A stretch of 64,000 nucleotides of DNA, taken from Gemmatimonadota bacterium (lineage in GTDB: Bacteria; Gemmatimonadota; Gemmatimonadetes; Gemmatimonadales; GWC2-71-9). The DNA is taken from positions 62,001 to 126,000 of the forward strand of contig VGVQ01000002.1 in assembly GCA_016874005.1 (NCBI GenBank). Reading direction: 5' to 3'. A program made the translations under genes and the position numbers. Below, one piece after another: positions 19,225 to 62,645 of this stretch; positions within the stretch are counted from its first letter, which is position 1; each line of letters starts with the position of its first letter. The notes under the pieces are model-generated. The model did not search any database, was not told where the DNA came from, and was given only the letters and a program-made list of their open reading frames with translations.

Positions 19225-20742
19225 TCACCGCCGGGCCGCTCCCTTGGCGGCGCTCGACGCGATGAAACGGCGAATGTCCTCGTTGGAGCTCATGAGATCC
19301 TCCTGCCGCAGGTACATCATGTGTCCAGAGCGGTAGCCCTTGAAGCTGATCCGATCCTGGAAGCGGCCGGCCGGATCCATCGCCCACATGTTGTACTTGG
19401 CATCGAAATACGGCGTTCCGCCGTCATAGTACCCCGACTGCACCAGGACGTGGAGGTACGGGTTGGCGCCCATCGCTTGCTGGAGGTCGAGCCCGGTCCG
19501 GTCACCCGACCGATTCCACGGACTGACCGGCCCGAACAGCCAGTATTGGAGGTCGGTCTTCCAGCCCAACCCCTCACGGAGATAGTGGTTGATCGCCGGG
19601 GCGAAGGCGTGATTCCACGAGGTCAACGCCGGGTCGAAGTCCGGTGACTCGCCGGCGTCCTCCCGATCGAGGCCCCGGTAGCGGGAGTCGAGCCGGCCAA
19701 CCGTCAGCCCACGCTCGCGGAGCAGCTCCTTCCAGAAGAACGAGGTTGGCACCGACAACGAGTGTTGCCGGACCACCGCCTCGCGGAGCCCACTGTACCT
19801 AGCAACCTGGGTGACCAAGTCGTCGCGAACCGGCGCCTCGAGCGAACCGCCTCTCGTGAGCGCGGGGACCAAGCGATCGACGGTGAACCGCTCGACCTCG
19901 GGAAGCAACTGGTCCAGATCGCGCGACTGGAGCTCCGGCGCCAGAGCCTTGTGGTACCAGGCCGTCGCCGTGAAATAGGGCAGCGTCAGGGCCGCCCCGA
20001 CCGGGCCATCGCGGCCAAGGCCAAGTCCGGTCGGCGAGACCAGGATGACCCCGTTGAGGTACATCCAATGGGCGGCTTGCAGCCGTTGGGCCAGGCCGGC
20101 AACCCGGGTCGTTCCGTAGCTCTCGCCGATCAGGTACTTGGGGCTCGCCCAGCGACCGGCTCGGCCCACGAAAGCGTCGATCCAGCGGGCCAGATACCCG
20201 ATGTCCTCATTGACCCCGAAGAACTGCTCCCGCTTCTGCTCGCCGATGATCCGAGAGAACCCGGTATTGACCGGGTCGACGTAAACGATGTCCGAGACGT
20301 CGAGAATCGAGTGAGGGTTGTCTTGAACCCCGTACGGCTGGACCGGAAACCCCTCGGCGTCGATCCGGAGCAGCTTCGGTCCGGTGTAGGCCACGTGCAT
20401 CCACACCGAAGCCGACCCCGGCCCGCCGTTGAAGGAGATCATCAGCGGCCGGGTGCTCTTGTCAACGACGTCCGTCCGCTCATAGAACGTGTGGAACATC
20501 GTGGCGATCGGGAGGCCCTTGTCATCCCAAACCGGCTGATTCCCAACCGTGACGCGGTAGGGGATTCGCTGCCCCTTGATGGTGACGACCCCCTCGCGGC
20601 GGGTCACCGAATCGGTCGGGAACTTGACGGTGCCAGCAGGCGCTGGACTCGGGCTGGGGGGCCGGTCCTGGGCGCCGACCCGAGCGGTGCCCAGGACGAG
20701 TGCCACCGACCACCAGGCAAAGGCGCGAACCATCGTCGGCAT
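19225..20742 (-). CDS. S10 family serine carboxypeptidase-like peptidase
   Basis: SFNGGPGSASVWMHVAYTGP; GESYGTTRVAGLAQRL; C-terminal SGHMMYLRQEDL. Confidence 0.9.
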   Translation of the reverse strand: MPTMVRAFAWWSVALVLGTARVGAQDRPPSPSPAPAGTVKFPTDSVTRREGVVTIKGQRIPYRVTVGNQPVWDDKGLPIATMFHTFYERTDVVDKSTRPLMISFNGGPGSASVWMHVAYTGPKLLRIDAEGFPVQPYGVQDNPHSILDVSDIVYVDPVNTGFSRIIGEQKREQFFGVNEDIGYLARWIDAFVGRAGRWASPKYLIGESYGTTRVAGLAQRLQAAHWMYLNGVILVSPTGLGLGRDGPVGAALTLPYFTATAWYHKALAPELQSRDLDQLLPEVERFTVDRLVPALTRGGSLEAPVRDDLVTQVARYSGLREAVVRQHSLSVPTSFFWKELLRERGLTVGRLDSRYRGLDREDAGESPDFDPALTSWNHAFAPAINHYLREGLGWKTDLQYWLFGPVSPWNRSGDRTGLDLQQAMGANPYLHVLVQSGYYDGGTPYFDAKYNMWAMDPAGRFQDRISFKGYRSGHMMYLRQEDLMSSNEDIRRFIASSAAKGAARR

Positions 20743-20839
20743 CCACCGAATGAGTTGGGCGGAGTCTACGTCAAGGAACCCGAGGGGGCAAACCGCGACC
20801 GGATTGCCTGGCTCGCAACCGCGGGCTAACCTTGGCCCC

Positions 20840-21799
20840 GTGCGGCTCACCGCCTTCCTTGCCGCGGCGATCATCGGCTGCGGCCCGACCCCGAACCCGC
20901 CGGCTTCCGGCGTTTCGGAGCCAGCCGTCTCCACCGGCACTCACCTCACCGCTGACGGCGTCCGACTCTGGTACCGGATCGTTGGAACGGGCTCGGCGAC
21001 GGTCATCGTGCCGGCGGCGAATTACTTCACCACCCTGATCGATTCGCTGGCCTCCGCCGACCGGCGAATCGTTCTCTACGACTCCCGAGGCCGGGGTCGC
21101 TCCGACAGCGTGACCGCGGACCATACCGGCGTCGAGTTCGACGTCGCCGACCTCGACGAGATCCGCGAGGCGGTCGGAGCCCCGTCCGTCACGATCCTGG
21201 CCTGGTCGGGCATCGCCGTCGCGGCCACCCGATACGCGCTTCGCCACCCGGACCGGGTCGACCGCCTGGTTTTGATCGCGCCGGTTGGGCCGCGTTGGCA
21301 TCCTTACTGGGACTCGATGCGGGTCAATGCCAGGGCCCGGGTCGACACCGGGGCGGCCGCCGCGCTGGAACGCCGGGTCGCGGCGGGAGCGTTCGCTCGA
21401 GATCAGGCCGGCCTCTGTCGCGCTCGGGCCGCTCTCAGCGATGCGACCGGCTTCGCCGATTCGGCGGTGGCCCGGCGCCGGCCCGATGTCTGCGACTCGC
21501 CGAACGAATGGCCGGATCGCTACGGGATTTACGTCGGTCGTTTGCTCCGGACTTTGGAGGGGTACGATCTGCGGCCCGACCTGCGCCGACTCGGCCAGCC
21601 CCTCCTGGTGATTCACGGCGTTCGCGACAACATCCCGGTGGCGGCCAGCCGAGAATGGGTGGCGAGCGCCCCAACGGCCCGGCTGCTGCTCCTCGAAGGC
21701 GTCGGGCACTGGCCCCATCTCGAGCAGCCGGCCACCGTGCTCGCGGCCCTCCGCGCCTTTGCCAGCGGCGCCTGGCCCGAGGGCACGGAGCCGCGTTAG
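20840..21799 (+). CDS. Alpha/beta hydrolase, lipoprotein-like
   Basis: GTG start, lipobox-like AAIIGCG; LYDSRGRGRSDS; LAWSGIAVAATRYALRHP; C-terminal GHWPHLEQP. Confidence 0.85.
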   Translation: MRLTAFLAAAIIGCGPTPNPPASGVSEPAVSTGTHLTADGVRLWYRIVGTGSATVIVPAANYFTTLIDSLASADRRIVLYDSRGRGRSDSVTADHTGVEFDVADLDEIREAVGAPSVTILAWSGIAVAATRYALRHPDRVDRLVLIAPVGPRWHPYWDSMRVNARARVDTGAAAALERRVAAGAFARDQAGLCRARAALSDATGFADSAVARRRPDVCDSPNEWPDRYGIYVGRLLRTLEGYDLRPDLRRLGQPLLVIHGVRDNIPVAASREWVASAPTARLLLLEGVGHWPHLEQPATVLAALRAFASGAWPEGTEPR

Positions 21800-22926
21800 G
21801 CGGACGAACCCGACCGGCCCCTGCCGCCCGGCGCCCGACGGCCACCCTTCCGGCCGACCAACGCCCAGAAACGCGGTTCGCTGAGAATCACGATCCGGTG
21901 CCCCTTCGCGGCCAGTCGGCGCAGTTCGAGGAGTTTCCGGCCGCCGACCCGGCCGGCGACCTGCAGCGGGTTGGGCCGGCCCCGGACCAGCACGTCCGTC
22001 TTCGAATTGGGACTCGACTGCACGATCGCCCCGGCTCGGCGGGCCGCGGCGATCGCCTCTCGGCGCGGCCTGGTCAGGAAACCGGTGAACGAAAGACGGC
22101 GACCGGCCAGGCGTTCGACCCGCCCGGCGACCAACCGCTTGGGCGGCTGCCGAAGGGCGGCGATCAGCTCGGCCGCCGTTTCATAGCGCTTGGCCCGATC
22201 CCCAAGGCACCGATGGATCACCTCTTTCAACTCGTCGCTGCACGCCAGGCCGCGAACATCCCGGCTCCGCATCGGAGTCGTCACGTCGCCTCGGAGGAGC
22301 ATCGCGATCAGTTGGCCGACCTGGTAGACGTCGTCCCGCTGTTGCCATTTACGGACCTTGCCCCAGGCGATTTCGGTCGGCGCGCCCAAGGGATTGAAGG
22401 CATCGGCGGTCACCCCGTGCCTGCTGAATTGGTGGGTCGCGATCCCGAAATCACCCAGCTTGAGCCGCTCGCCAGCGCAGACGAACACGTTGAACGGAGT
22501 CAGGTCCCGATGGAGCGCCTGGCCTCGGTGGAGCGCGTCGAGCGTATCGAGGACCGCGGCGATCTCGCCGCGGACGAACCGCTCCGACTGACCGCCCTTC
22601 GCTTCGAGCCAGGCGCCGAGATCGCCGTGCTCCGCATACTCCATGACCAAGCAGTAGCGGATCTCGGCCGCCGCGGCGTCGACGAACCGGTCGTAGACCG
22701 TCAACGCCCGCGGCCTTCGCGCCAACATCTGCGCGAAATAGGCCTCCCGGAGCCACCCGGTCAACCAGTGGCTCACCTTCACGCAGACCTGTTCCGGAAG
22801 CGAGCCGCGGGGGGATGGGCTCGCGAGATAGATCGCGCCGAAGCCGCCCTTGCCGATCAGGCGATCGAGTCGGTAGTTCCGACCGGTTTCGGTGCTTCGC
22901 AGCTCGGATAGCCCGGAGGCGGTCAT
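21796..22926 (-). CDS. Ser/Thr protein kinase with putative C-terminal BRCT domain
   Basis: IGKGGFGAIYLA P-loop, VCVKVS lysine, LHRDLTPFNVFV catalytic loop, LGDFGIA; C-terminus LAGRRLSFTGFLTRPRREAIAAARRAGAIVQSSPNSKTDVLVRG..GGRKLLELRRLAAKGHRIVILSEPRFWALV resembles BRCT. Confidence 0.82.
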   Translation of the reverse strand: MTASGLSELRSTETGRNYRLDRLIGKGGFGAIYLASPSPRGSLPEQVCVKVSHWLTGWLREAYFAQMLARRPRALTVYDRFVDAAAAEIRYCLVMEYAEHGDLGAWLEAKGGQSERFVRGEIAAVLDTLDALHRGQALHRDLTPFNVFVCAGERLKLGDFGIATHQFSRHGVTADAFNPLGAPTEIAWGKVRKWQQRDDVYQVGQLIAMLLRGDVTTPMRSRDVRGLACSDELKEVIHRCLGDRAKRYETAAELIAALRQPPKRLVAGRVERLAGRRLSFTGFLTRPRREAIAAARRAGAIVQSSPNSKTDVLVRGRPNPLQVAGRVGGRKLLELRRLAAKGHRIVILSEPRFWALVGRKGGRRAPGGRGRSGSSA

Positions 22927-23270
22927 CGCCGTGGGGAGAACACCTCGACCGTCAACGAGAAGGTTCGACCCTCTCCGCCCTGGAGCGCGCCCACCCCGAC
23001 GACGTGACGAGCGACGTCTTCGCCTTTTTCGTTCTTGATCGCGACCACGACCGAGTACTCCCAGGGATCCGCGCCGGCGGGATGTCGAATGGTGCCATCG
23101 ACCTTGAGCGGAATGGCCGTCGGCGCCGTTCGTGCCCCTCCAGCCGCACCGGGGTCGAAGCGAAGATGGTGGCGACAGGCCGGGCAGACGCTGGCGCTCT
23201 CCAAGATCGTCGTCCGGCAATGCGGACAATTGCGGGTGGCACCGGCGGCGCCGGCCCGGGCGCTACTCAT
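22923..23270 (-). CDS. Zinc-ribbon protein
   Basis: CPHCRTTILESASVCPACRHHLRFD double CxxC; overlaps both neighbours by 4 bp. Confidence 0.7.
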   Translation of the reverse strand: MSSARAGAAGATRNCPHCRTTILESASVCPACRHHLRFDPGAAGGARTAPTAIPLKVDGTIRHPAGADPWEYSVVVAIKNEKGEDVARHVVGVGALQGGEGRTFSLTVEVFSPRR

Positions 23271-23737
23271 GACCCGGCTCGGACCTCGCCCCAGCCGAAC
23301 TCGACCTGCCCCCGCATCTTCGAACCGGCAGCGACGGTCAACGAACCCGCCTTGAGATTGCCGTTGAGCACCCCGGTATCGAGCAGCTCGACCCGAGAGG
23401 CCTCGTCGACGTTACCCTCGAGCTCACCAGCGATGACCACCGCGGCCGCGCGGACCCCGCCGATCACTTTCGCCCCGGTTTCGATGGTGACGTTGCCCTT
23501 GACGTGCACGTCGCCTTGGAACTTTCCGGCGATCCGAATGTGCCCCGAGCCCTCGATCTTCCCCTCGATGGTAATGCCGCTCGCGATCACCGATTCCTTG
23601 GTTCCCTCGACCGGTTTCGCCGCGGCATAGCTCGGCGGCAGATCGACCCTCGGCTCGGGGTCCCTCTTGGGAAGGTCGGCGACGGGCGCGGCCAGCGACT
23701 TCGGCACCGGCTGATCTTTCCAGATGGCCATGGGCAA
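23267..23737 (-). CDS. Bactofilin (polymer-forming cytoskeletal protein)
   Basis: ITIEGKIEGSGHIRIAGKFQGDVHVKGNVTIETGAKVIGGVRAAAVVIAGELEGNVDEASRVELLDTGVLNGNLKAGSLTVAAGSKMRGQVEFG. Confidence 0.92.
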   Translation of the reverse strand: MPMAIWKDQPVPKSLAAPVADLPKRDPEPRVDLPPSYAAAKPVEGTKESVIASGITIEGKIEGSGHIRIAGKFQGDVHVKGNVTIETGAKVIGGVRAAAVVIAGELEGNVDEASRVELLDTGVLNGNLKAGSLTVAAGSKMRGQVEFGWGEVRAGS

Positions 23738-23852: not shown

Positions 23853-24161
23853 TTACGGCGGCGTGCCCCGGCGCCGATGCCGAACAGCCGCGACCGCCAC
23901 CAACCCGGCCCCCAGCAGGAGGACCGAGGCAGGCTCCGGCACGGTGGTCGCCAGCCCTCCCGGGCCCTCGACTCGGCTCCCGCCCCCCAGTCGGCCCGGT
24001 TCGGCACGCCGGTCCTCCGCCAGGATCCGTGGCACCCCGTTGGCGCAGGTGGCAAATGCCACCCGACACTCTTCCGCAGCCACGGGGCCCACCCCCCCGA
24101 CCGCGAGCAGCGCGGCCACCGCGCCAGCACTCCGATTCCCCACCCTTTCCCCCGTTCGCAT
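23853..24161 (-). CDS. Short PEP-CTERM sorting-domain protein
   Basis: Signal peptide, C-terminal VPEPASVLLLGAGLVAVAAVRHRRR. Confidence 0.7.
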   Translation of the reverse strand: MRTGERVGNRSAGAVAALLAVGGVGPVAAEECRVAFATCANGVPRILAEDRRAEPGRLGGGSRVEGPGGLATTVPEPASVLLLGAGLVAVAAVRHRRRGTPP

Positions 24162-24311
24162 TGACCAGCCAACGGTAGGAAGCGCCACCGACCCACGCCA
24201 GCGCGAAAGTCGGCCATTTCACCGCGAAAAACTCCGGTTCCACGCAGGCTCCTGCGCGCCAACGGCCCGCGATGGAGAGCAGACTGTCGGCGCTGCAGGC
24301 CCCTGCGCGAG

Positions 24312-25445
24312 CTACTTCCGAAAGGCAGTGACCCGATTCTCGAGTGGCAGTTCTTCCCGCCGTTCGGTTGGGGGCCCGCGCGCCGACCAGCTTCCAGGAA
24401 ATTCCGGAGCCAGGCCGAGATCCTGATAGCTGGCGATGACGAAGGCGATCCCTTCAGTGGCCAGCGGTGAAGGGGCATCGCCGAGGTGGAAATGGAGGTG
24501 GGGCGCCGTCGAATTCCCCGAGTTCCCCAGGCGGCCGACTTCCTGACCGGGGCGCACCATCTCGCCAACCCGGACCCGAATCGATCCCGGGATGAGATGG
24601 GCGTAGAAGGCGAATCGACCGCCGCCGAGGTCGAGAATGACATGGTTCCCACCGACCGTCTCGAGCGTGATTGGGACCGCCATGGTTGGCGCGAAGGGGA
24701 CGTTCTCGATGATGCTGTCCTTGACCGCCACCACTTTGCCGCGGGCGACCGCGAGCAGCGGCTCGCCGTATCCGAACCAGTTCTCGTTCCTGGTCGAATC
24801 GCCTTGCCATGCCGATCCGCCCGGACCCAGCCTGATCCAGTCGGTGGCGAAACGCTGCGGGATCCGGGGCAGTCCGTCGAGCGGGATCACCGTGCGCCGA
24901 TGGCCCGAGCTGTTCCCCGGGCCGTTGACCGCGACCCAGGGACCGCCACGAAGCGGTGAAGCCAGCACCGGGACCGCCGCCTGCTCGACAGCCACAGCCG
25001 TCGCCAGCAGATCCGTCGTGCTGCCTTGCTCGAGCGAATCGGCGTGGGTGACCGACAACCGATGGGTCAGCCGGGCCGGTGCCGATCCAGCCGGCACGGA
25101 CAGGTGGAGAAACAGGACCGCCTGCCGGCCGCCGCCCAGGATGCGCCCGTCGCCGGTCTCGCCCACCCGAGCCATCGCGACCCGAAGCGAGTCGCCGGCC
25201 CGGGTGGCCAGGACCAGACCGTCCCCGATCACCTCGACCTGCCGGATCGCCGCCCCTCGCCGAGCCACGTTGGTGATCCGGAGCTCGTAGATCAGATGGT
25301 CGCGACCCTCGGCCCGAACCGGTTGAGGTGGCTTCGGAAGCCGCACTTCGAGGGGCACCATTCCGGGCAGTTGCGCCTCCCCCGGACCCGGTACCATTGA
25401 CGACAGCAGCAGCACTGCCCCCGTCCCCACGGCGATCCGTCCCAT
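24312..25445 (-). CDS. M23 family metallopeptidase, secreted
   Basis: Signal peptide; GGNHVILDLGGGRFAFYAHLIPGSIRVRVGEMVRPGQEVGRLGNSGNSTAPHLHFHLGD. Confidence 0.9.
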   Translation of the reverse strand: MGRIAVGTGAVLLLSSMVPGPGEAQLPGMVPLEVRLPKPPQPVRAEGRDHLIYELRITNVARRGAAIRQVEVIGDGLVLATRAGDSLRVAMARVGETGDGRILGGGRQAVLFLHLSVPAGSAPARLTHRLSVTHADSLEQGSTTDLLATAVAVEQAAVPVLASPLRGGPWVAVNGPGNSSGHRRTVIPLDGLPRIPQRFATDWIRLGPGGSAWQGDSTRNENWFGYGEPLLAVARGKVVAVKDSIIENVPFAPTMAVPITLETVGGNHVILDLGGGRFAFYAHLIPGSIRVRVGEMVRPGQEVGRLGNSGNSTAPHLHFHLGDAPSPLATEGIAFVIASYQDLGLAPEFPGSWSARGPPTERREELPLENRVTAFRK

Positions 25446-61259: not shown

Positions 61260-62645
61260 ATGACCCCGAACCAATCCGCGCTACCAGCCCTCAAGGCCTC
61301 CGAGGGCAAATGGGCCCGAGTGTTCTCGAGCCACCCGTTCGATATCGTCCTCGACCGGGCCGAGGGGATCTACCTGTTCGATACCGCCGGAAATCGATAC
61401 CTGGACGTCTCGGGCGGTGCCCTGGCGACGAGCATCGGCGCCGGCGACCGCCGGGTGCTCGACGCCATGCGCCGGCAGGCCGAGCGATTCACCTACGCCA
61501 CCCCCGCGATGGCCAACGAACCCAGGGCGGACTTGTGCGAGCGCCTGGCGCGGTTGATGCCGGGGACCCTCAACACCAGCTATCTCGTCTCGGGCGGGTC
61601 AGAGGCCGTCGAAACGGCCGTGAAGCTGGCCCGGCAGTACCACCTCGCTTGCGGGCGCCCCAACAAGTCCCGGGTAATCGGGACCTGGGACAGCTATCAC
61701 GGGATGACGCTGGGTGCCCTGTCGGTCGCCGGCGGCCCGGGGTACCGGGCCCCGTTCGACCCGCAACTCGCCAACGCGCCGCACATCCGACACTGCCGCC
61801 GCGCCACCGATCGACCGCTCGGCGTCAGCGAGGACGAATGGGGCCGGACCTGCGCCTTCGAGTTGGAGGAGATGATTCACTATGTCGGTCCGTCCAACGT
61901 GGCCGCGTTCATCGCCACGCCGGTGGGCGCCGGGAAGGACTATGGCCTGGTTCCGCCGCGGTCGTACTGGACCAGCATTCGGGAGATCTGCGATCGCTAT
62001 GACGTGTTGCTGATCGCCGACGAGGTGGTCACCGGGTTCGGTCGGACCGGCCGCTGGTTCGCGATGGAGCACTTCGGTGTCGAACCGGACATCATGGTGA
62101 CCGGCAAGGGGATCTCCAGCGTCTACTTCCCGATGGCTGCGGTGACGGTAAGTGACAAGATCAACGAGCCGTTTACCAAAGGGACCTATTTCATCCACGG
62201 CCACACCCACATGGGCCATCCGGTCGGTTGCGCCACGACCCTCGCGGTGCTCGACGTCATCGAACAGGACAAGCTGGTCGCGAACGCGGCCTCGGTGGGC
62301 CCGTATCTGCACCGCCTGCTACGGGAGCGGATCCTGCCCCACCGCCCGGTCGCCGACGTCCGCGGACTCGGCCTCTTGGCGATACTGGAGTTGGTTCGGG
62401 ACAAGGAGACGATGGATTTTCCGCCCGTCGAGGCGGACCCGGAGCACCTCTTCCAGGCGATCGCCTACAAGCACGGGCTGTCGTTCTACATGTCGCTGTA
62501 CGGACCGCGACGGCCAGGCGCCTTGAAACGCGGCGTTCCGATCTTCATCACCCCGGCGCTGTGCATCACCGAGGCCCAAGTTGACGACCTGGTCGAACGA
62601 CTCGACCGGGTGGTTCAGGAATGGGATCAGACGATCGGCGAGTAA
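61260..62645 (+). CDS. Class III aminotransferase
   Basis: LVSGGSEAVETAVKLARQYH; LLIADEVVTGFGRTGRWFAMEHFGVEPDIMVTGKGIS. Confidence 0.95.
   Translation: MTPNQSALPALKASEGKWARVFSSHPFDIVLDRAEGIYLFDTAGNRYLDVSGGALATSIGAGDRRVLDAMRRQAERFTYATPAMANEPRADLCERLARLMPGTLNTSYLVSGGSEAVETAVKLARQYHLACGRPNKSRVIGTWDSYHGMTLGALSVAGGPGYRAPFDPQLANAPHIRHCRRATDRPLGVSEDEWGRTCAFELEEMIHYVGPSNVAAFIATPVGAGKDYGLVPPRSYWTSIREICDRYDVLLIADEVVTGFGRTGRWFAMEHFGVEPDIMVTGKGISSVYFPMAAVTVSDKINEPFTKGTYFIHGHTHMGHPVGCATTLAVLDVIEQDKLVANAASVGPYLHRLLRERILPHRPVADVRGLGLLAILELVRDKETMDFPPVEADPEHLFQAIAYKHGLSFYMSLYGPRRPGALKRGVPIFITPALCITEAQVDDLVERLDRVVQEWDQTIGE

Follow-up and report, generated by a model that had tools for sequence, protein, structure and literature searches.

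A soluble Hanks-type kinase fused to a LigA/RFC1-type BRCT domain is conserved across bacterial phyla and may dock on DNA ends

The stretch of DNA analyzed here (the window) comprises 64,000 nucleotides, positions 62,001 to 126,000 of contig VGVQ01000002.1 from a Gemmatimonadota bacterium (GenBank assembly GCA_016874005.1), and is part of contig 2 of a 3.88-Mb assembly that is 97% complete. It contains three consecutive minus-strand genes, which encode a bactofilin, a double-CxxC zinc-ribbon protein, and a soluble Hanks-type kinase with a C-terminal BRCT domain; the last of these, referred to below as the kinase-BRCT, is the subject of this report. The three genes and their two 4-bp overlaps had been described in an earlier reading of the sequence (the original prediction). 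All three open reading frames (ORFs) are present, as are both ATGA stop/start overlaps, one at the bactofilin/zinc-ribbon junction and the other at the zinc-ribbon/kinase junction; the bactofilin start alone was revised, as it is more likely the ATG at 23731 than the TTG six bases upstream at 23737. The features of the locus, all on the minus strand, are as follows.

23731..23267 (−): bactofilin, from the likely ATG, with an alternative TTG start at 23737 (PF04519, E 1.6e-22)
23270..22923 (−): double-CxxC zinc-ribbon protein, 115 residues, with a conserved C-terminal region (homologue at E < 1e-30 in 12 other genomes of the order)
22926..21796 (−): soluble Hanks-type kinase with C-terminal BRCT, 376 residues (PF00069, E 3.8e-19)
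22141..22875 (−): kinase domain, residues ~18–262, with K50, E61, HRD 139–141, N146, and DFG 159–161 (family alignment)
22498..22512 (−): catalytic loop H-R-D-L-T, residues 139–143 (family alignment)
21853..22119 (−): BRCT domain of LigA/RFC1/DnaQ-exonuclease type, residues ~270–358 (profile and fold searches)
22063..22086 (−): putative 5'-phosphate pocket, part 1, T281 and G282 (22081–22086) and R288 (22063–22065) (family alignment)
21934..21936 (−): putative 5'-phosphate pocket, part 2, K331 (family alignment; aligned with GSK of LigA and QSK of RFC1)

The kinase domain of the window protein matches PF00069 over profile positions 1–254 of 263, and PknB of M. tuberculosis is among its best matches in the PDB, both by sequence and by fold. 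The full-length AlphaFold model has a mean predicted local distance difference test score (pLDDT) of 85.8 and a predicted template modeling score (pTM) of 0.80. Lys50, the alphaC Glu61, H139-R140-D141, N146, and D159-F160-G161 are all intact, and these residues are invariant across the 48–50 aligned family members, except that the Phe of DFG is a Tyr in one; judged from these residues, the kinase looks catalytically intact. No transmembrane segment was found in the window kinase (maximum 19-residue Kyte-Doolittle mean 0.78) or in any family member (maximum 19-residue hydropathy ≤ 1.53), and the family thus lacks the transmembrane helix and extracellular domain by which transmembrane sensor Ser/Thr kinases of the PknB/PASTA type are recognized. 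The intact Lys, HRD, and DFG motifs and the lack of an obvious transmembrane segment, both part of the original prediction, are therefore borne out by the alignment and the hydropathy profile. Two further features had been missed: the catalytic loop reads HRDLT in place of HRDLK, and the APE motif is absent from the window kinase. The position of the lysine in HRDxK is occupied by Thr in 50/50 family members and by Lys in 21/21 other kinases from related genomes; that is, the lysine expected of a Hanks-type Ser/Thr kinase is missing throughout the family. In addition, W194 and Q202 are invariant in the kinase-BRCT family only. In a kinase-domain tree, all 50 members form one clade, which has a long stem (1.6 substitutions per site) and modest local support (0.67). 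Altogether, the kinase-BRCT proteins stand apart as a subfamily of their own among bacterial Hanks-type kinases.

The tail of the protein, its C-terminal ~90 residues, belongs to the LigA/RFC1/DnaQ-exonuclease class of BRCT domains. For the window protein alone, the match to PF00533 is below the Pfam threshold (15.5 vs. 21.3 bits, E 0.021); 11 of 15 family members match this model, the best at 2.2e-6. Searching with the single window sequence, phmmer finds the BRCT of Thermus LigA at 1.5e-4, and a domain profile searched against the PDB gave significant matches only to LigA (1.8e-8) and RFC1 (1e-7) chains. The AlphaFold model of the BRCT domain alone (pLDDT 76, pTM 0.64) shows the expected strand-helix order, and almost all of the top 50 Foldseek matches listed are BRCT-containing entries, led by LigA (8.5e-6), RFC bound to nicked DNA (1.2e-4), RFC1, and PARP1. 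The likeness of this C-terminus to the BRCT of NAD-dependent DNA ligase, noticed in the original prediction, is upheld by the profile, PDB, and fold searches alike, including the structural comparison that it had proposed.

Over its full length, the domain is most closely matched by the BRCT of DnaQ-like exonucleases. The NCBIfam model PRK06195, which describes DnaQ-exonuclease-BRCT proteins, matches residues 271–355 at 5.1e-7, and hhalign aligns the family with a DnaQ-BRCT protein of the same order at 98.1% over 89 gap-free columns. Two DnaQ-like exonucleases with a C-terminal BRCT (L052:357-1244 and L092:779-1708) also carry the long insertion that precedes helix 2 of the BRCT. Since this insertion is common to both, the kinase tail may derive from DnaQ-like exonuclease-BRCT proteins. 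Weak BRCT matches in the order-wide genome search were set aside; the two that were translated proved to be DnaQ-exonuclease-BRCT proteins.

Four residues of the domain form a putative 5'-phosphate pocket. T281, G282, and R288 are unchanged in 51/51 family members and K331 in all 50 that have a letter at this position, and the same T-G-R-K letters are found in Thermus LigA, human RFC1, and two DnaQ-BRCT proteins. The human RFC1 BRCT binds 5'-phosphate DNA through T415, G416, R423, and K458, which, counted on the 2k6g sequence, fall on TG, on the R in ERDEA, and on the K in GQSK. On its own, the RFC1 BRCT has a dissociation constant of ~10 nM for recessed 5'-phosphate DNA (PMC9293004). Deinococcus LigA without its BRCT has a lower affinity for double-stranded DNA, and prokaryotic BRCT pockets have been associated with phosphates at nicks or ends (PMC10504179). 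The kinase tail has the conserved Thr-Gly, Arg, and Lys that mark a 5'-phosphate DNA-binding BRCT of the LigA/RFC1 type, and it would be predicted from these letters to bind such DNA.

The fusion is conserved across phyla. A clear orthologue of the kinase-BRCT was found in 36/289 genomes of the order, which represent 13 genera and at least one family besides that of the window, and it was absent from the five other genomes of the window's genus. In a second phylum, to which the Thermoanaerobaculia locus mentioned below belongs, 13/297 genomes were positive, as was one of 248 genomes in each of two further phyla. A scan of species genomes returned members at 36–41% identity and near full length on contigs labeled Thermoanaerobaculia, Terriglobia, Actinobacteria, and uncultured. 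The family profile separates sharply, with members scoring ~370–512 bits and other kinases < 85 bits, a truncated copy excepted. No family member without the BRCT was seen at the thresholds used; a second copy in one genome (G290) is truncated at the contig edge and cannot be judged. There was no homologue in the phage or plasmid collections, and carriage by phages or plasmids was rejected as there was no match in either. Two loci deserve a remark. The orthologue at L051 (G006:C151) has its BRCT split over two frames, which reflects a frameshift, an assembly error, or a decaying copy, and L101, a contig labeled Chloroflexi, encodes a kinase 72% identical to that of the window and is probably a misbinned Gemmatimonadota contig.

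The original prediction had treated the three genes as one signaling module, in which the kinase phosphorylates the bactofilin and/or the zinc-ribbon protein and the BRCT reads the phosphorylated site or ties the polymer to DNA. The two 4-bp overlaps do suggest co-translation in the window genome, but no other genome was found to have the three genes linked, and the trio was rejected as a conserved module. Bactofilin followed by the zinc-ribbon gene is a conserved two-gene unit in Gemmatimonadota (window 22923–23731; L181-L192), and the pair occurs without the kinase-BRCT in 11 other genomes of the order; in G115, a pair-bearing genome, an unrelated kinase lies downstream. Conversely, neither a bactofilin nor a zinc ribbon stands beside the kinase-BRCT in ~33 loci of the order or in 19 loci of other phyla, a zinc-ribbon homologue is missing from the kinase-positive genomes G024 and G048, and in G006 and G265 the pair and the kinase-BRCT are both present but unlinked, on different contigs. 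Because the pair lacks the kinase elsewhere and these last two genomes hold both apart, the trio is private to the window genome: the bactofilin and zinc-ribbon genes are a separate unit, which here happens to lie ahead of the kinase. With no conservation of the trio beyond the window genome in the neighborhood survey, an outcome that the original prediction itself had named as a refutation, the module is unsupported, and we regard it as very improbable. The bactofilin scores over the curated Pfam cut-off for PF04519. The zinc-ribbon protein gave only sub-threshold Pfam matches to DZR/zinc-ribbon models (0.0014–0.004), and its C-terminal half is conserved yet belongs to no Pfam or NCBIfam family.

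The kinase-BRCT has no fixed operon partner. Clustering of the neighbors at ~51 kinase-BRCT loci revealed no recurring partner beyond small groups of closely related genomes, and the Pfam families of 96 neighbor proteins were scattered, with none recurrent among the 25 of 67 families listed; a hidden conserved partner was rejected on the strength of both. Beside the Thermoanaerobaculia kinase-BRCT, L108:7158-10533 encodes a TIR-domain protein, which matches defense models, and a large protein that by eye is CHAT-domain-like. In the window, an alpha/beta-hydrolase-like gene (20576–21799, +) converges on the kinase gene and overlaps its end by four bases. On the other side, an M23-like peptidoglycan peptidase (24312–25445, −), with weak C-terminal matches to Pgp3, DipM, and MepM, lies two ORFs upstream of the bactofilin gene and recalls the bactofilin-M23 pairings known from other bacteria. 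Between the two is a short ORF of secreted type (23853–24188, −) with a C-terminal PEP-CTERM sorting signal (TIGR02595, 25.6 bits vs. a cut-off of 16).

We give an even chance to the reading that this is a soluble Hanks-type kinase subfamily whose 5'-phosphate-type BRCT docks it on DNA ends, where it phosphorylates repair or replication proteins. The pocket formed by T281, G282, R288, and K331 would hold the kinase on 5'-phosphorylated DNA ends, gaps, or nicks, and the docked enzyme would phosphorylate itself and nearby DNA-repair or replication proteins, its action being either local or stimulated by the end. In function, such an enzyme would be a bacterial counterpart of the damage kinases that ends activate. 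The proposal of a DNA end as ligand prompted a test for co-occurrence with Ku (PF02735). Within the order, Ku is present in 33/36 kinase-positive genomes and in 136/251 others (p 7e-6); in the second phylum, it is present in 10/13 positives and 18/64 others (p 0.0015). NiFe hydrogenase, taken as a patchy control family, is under-represented (5/36 positives vs. 93/251 others, p 0.008), and since it goes the opposite way, the link with Ku does not reflect general gene richness. The association is suggestive: it fits the DNA-end reading but is phylogenetically confounded. A wider proposal, that the family is a widespread bacterial DNA-damage kinase that senses 5'-phosphorylated breaks via its ligase-type BRCT and signals through the HRDxT loop alongside Ku-based end joining, is put forward tentatively and with some doubt.

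Several observations weigh against docking on DNA ends as the role of the BRCT. With only second-phylum genomes of ≥ 3.7 Mb kept for comparison, the Ku association becomes borderline (10/13 vs. 15/33, p 0.053); at the genus level it is not significant (12/13 vs. 50/66, p 0.17); and the p of ~0.008 for NiFe hydrogenase implies that lineage effects alone can reach such a size. Among the neighbor families listed in the Pfam tally, no DNA-repair genes recur beside the kinase-BRCT. The contacts that the BRCT makes with 5'-DNA in the intact RFC complex differ from those in the model based on nuclear magnetic resonance (PMC9293004). BRCT strand 3 and helix 2 are joined by a loop that exceeds its LigA and RFC1 counterparts in length and is poorly predicted (pLDDT ~55–62), and the HRDxT loop leaves the type of substrate uncertain. 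Finally, eukaryotic BRCTs use this TG...K pocket to hold phosphoserine, and in other BRCTs it binds phosphopeptides.

This last point raises the alternative that the BRCT is a phosphoprotein reader, which binds the autophosphorylated site or a primed substrate and thereby leads to processive or feed-forward phosphorylation without DNA. Kinases are indeed often paired with phosphopeptide-binding modules such as FHA; here, however, the nearest relatives by both sequence and fold are the DNA-type BRCTs of LigA, RFC1, and DnaQ, R288, a marker of the DNA-type class, is invariant, and the BRCT is single, with no tandem. We consider a phosphoprotein reader unlikely. The sensing of DNA could also serve a different end, with the protein acting as a solitary anti-phage or stress-arrest kinase whose BRCT detects foreign or broken DNA ends and whose kinase shuts the cell down. 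The patchy distribution without fixed neighbors, the TIR-domain gene adjoining the kinase-BRCT at L108, and the scores of the kinase domain against PADLOC models (PD-T4-6, 9e-27; MAD6, 8.6e-23, and 2.6e-32 in L110) would suit such a role. The PD-T4-6 models match Hanks kinases generally, though, defense genes do not recur among the neighbors of the kinase-BRCT, and the phage and plasmid collections hold no homologue, so we think a defense kinase quite improbable.

To a similar degree, we doubt that the protein is a kinase-fold enzyme brought to DNA by its BRCT to act on a non-canonical substrate, be it a small molecule, a nucleic acid, or a residue other than Ser/Thr. The HRDxT loop and the missing APE motif point in this direction, as do weak hits on the models of Kdo kinase, APH, and Bud32, but PknB and other protein Ser/Thr kinases match best in both sequence and fold, and the remaining catalytic residues are all intact.

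Each part of the kinase-BRCT has known relatives. The BRCTs of LigA and RFC1 (PF00533), its nearest solved structures, share its fold and T-G-R-K pocket but are joined to a ligase or a clamp loader instead of a kinase, and they have a shorter insertion before helix 2. The DnaQ-like exonucleases with a C-terminal BRCT (NF004844/PRK06195), found in the same order (L052, L092), align without gaps over the BRCT, insertion included, but have an exonuclease domain in place of the kinase. Mycobacterial Hanks kinases of the PknB type (PF00069) have the kinase fold and the K/E/HRD/DFG residues in common with the window kinase, which differs from them in its BRCT tail, in the HRDxT loop where they have HRDxK, and in lacking a transmembrane helix, an extracellular sensor, and the APE motif. 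In Bacillus subtilis, YabT is a Hanks kinase that is stimulated by DNA binding and acts on RecA; unlike the window kinase, it is membrane-anchored and is not known to have a BRCT. Deinococcus radiodurans RqkA, a DNA damage-responsive Ser/Thr kinase, would share the proposed role of a bacterial kinase in DNA damage, and the paper on it does not mention a BRCT (PMC6052341).

According to a review (PMC10386641), the BRCT complement of most bacteria is limited to one or two proteins, namely DNA ligase and a subunit of DNA polymerase III. The window genome has exactly two BRCT matches, one of which is the kinase; the other lies in an open frame of 700 residues and is probably LigA. We found no description of a kinase-BRCT fusion in open-access full text, a search that did not cover subscription journals and preprints, in line with the view in the original prediction that the combination was not known to have been described. 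A 2005 survey of prokaryotic Ser/Thr kinase architectures likewise makes no mention of BRCT. The domains and folds are known; what appears new is the way they are combined, the conservation of this fusion, and the HRDxT loop.

Among the characterized damage responses of bacteria, RecA/LexA is regarded as the principal one, and few bacterial damage kinases, RqkA among them, are known. With its invariant HRDxT loop, the family also lends itself to testing how a kinase works when the usual lysine is absent. If docking of the kinase-BRCT on DNA ends is true, it would link DNA breaks directly to the phosphorylation of proteins in bacteria, across phyla.

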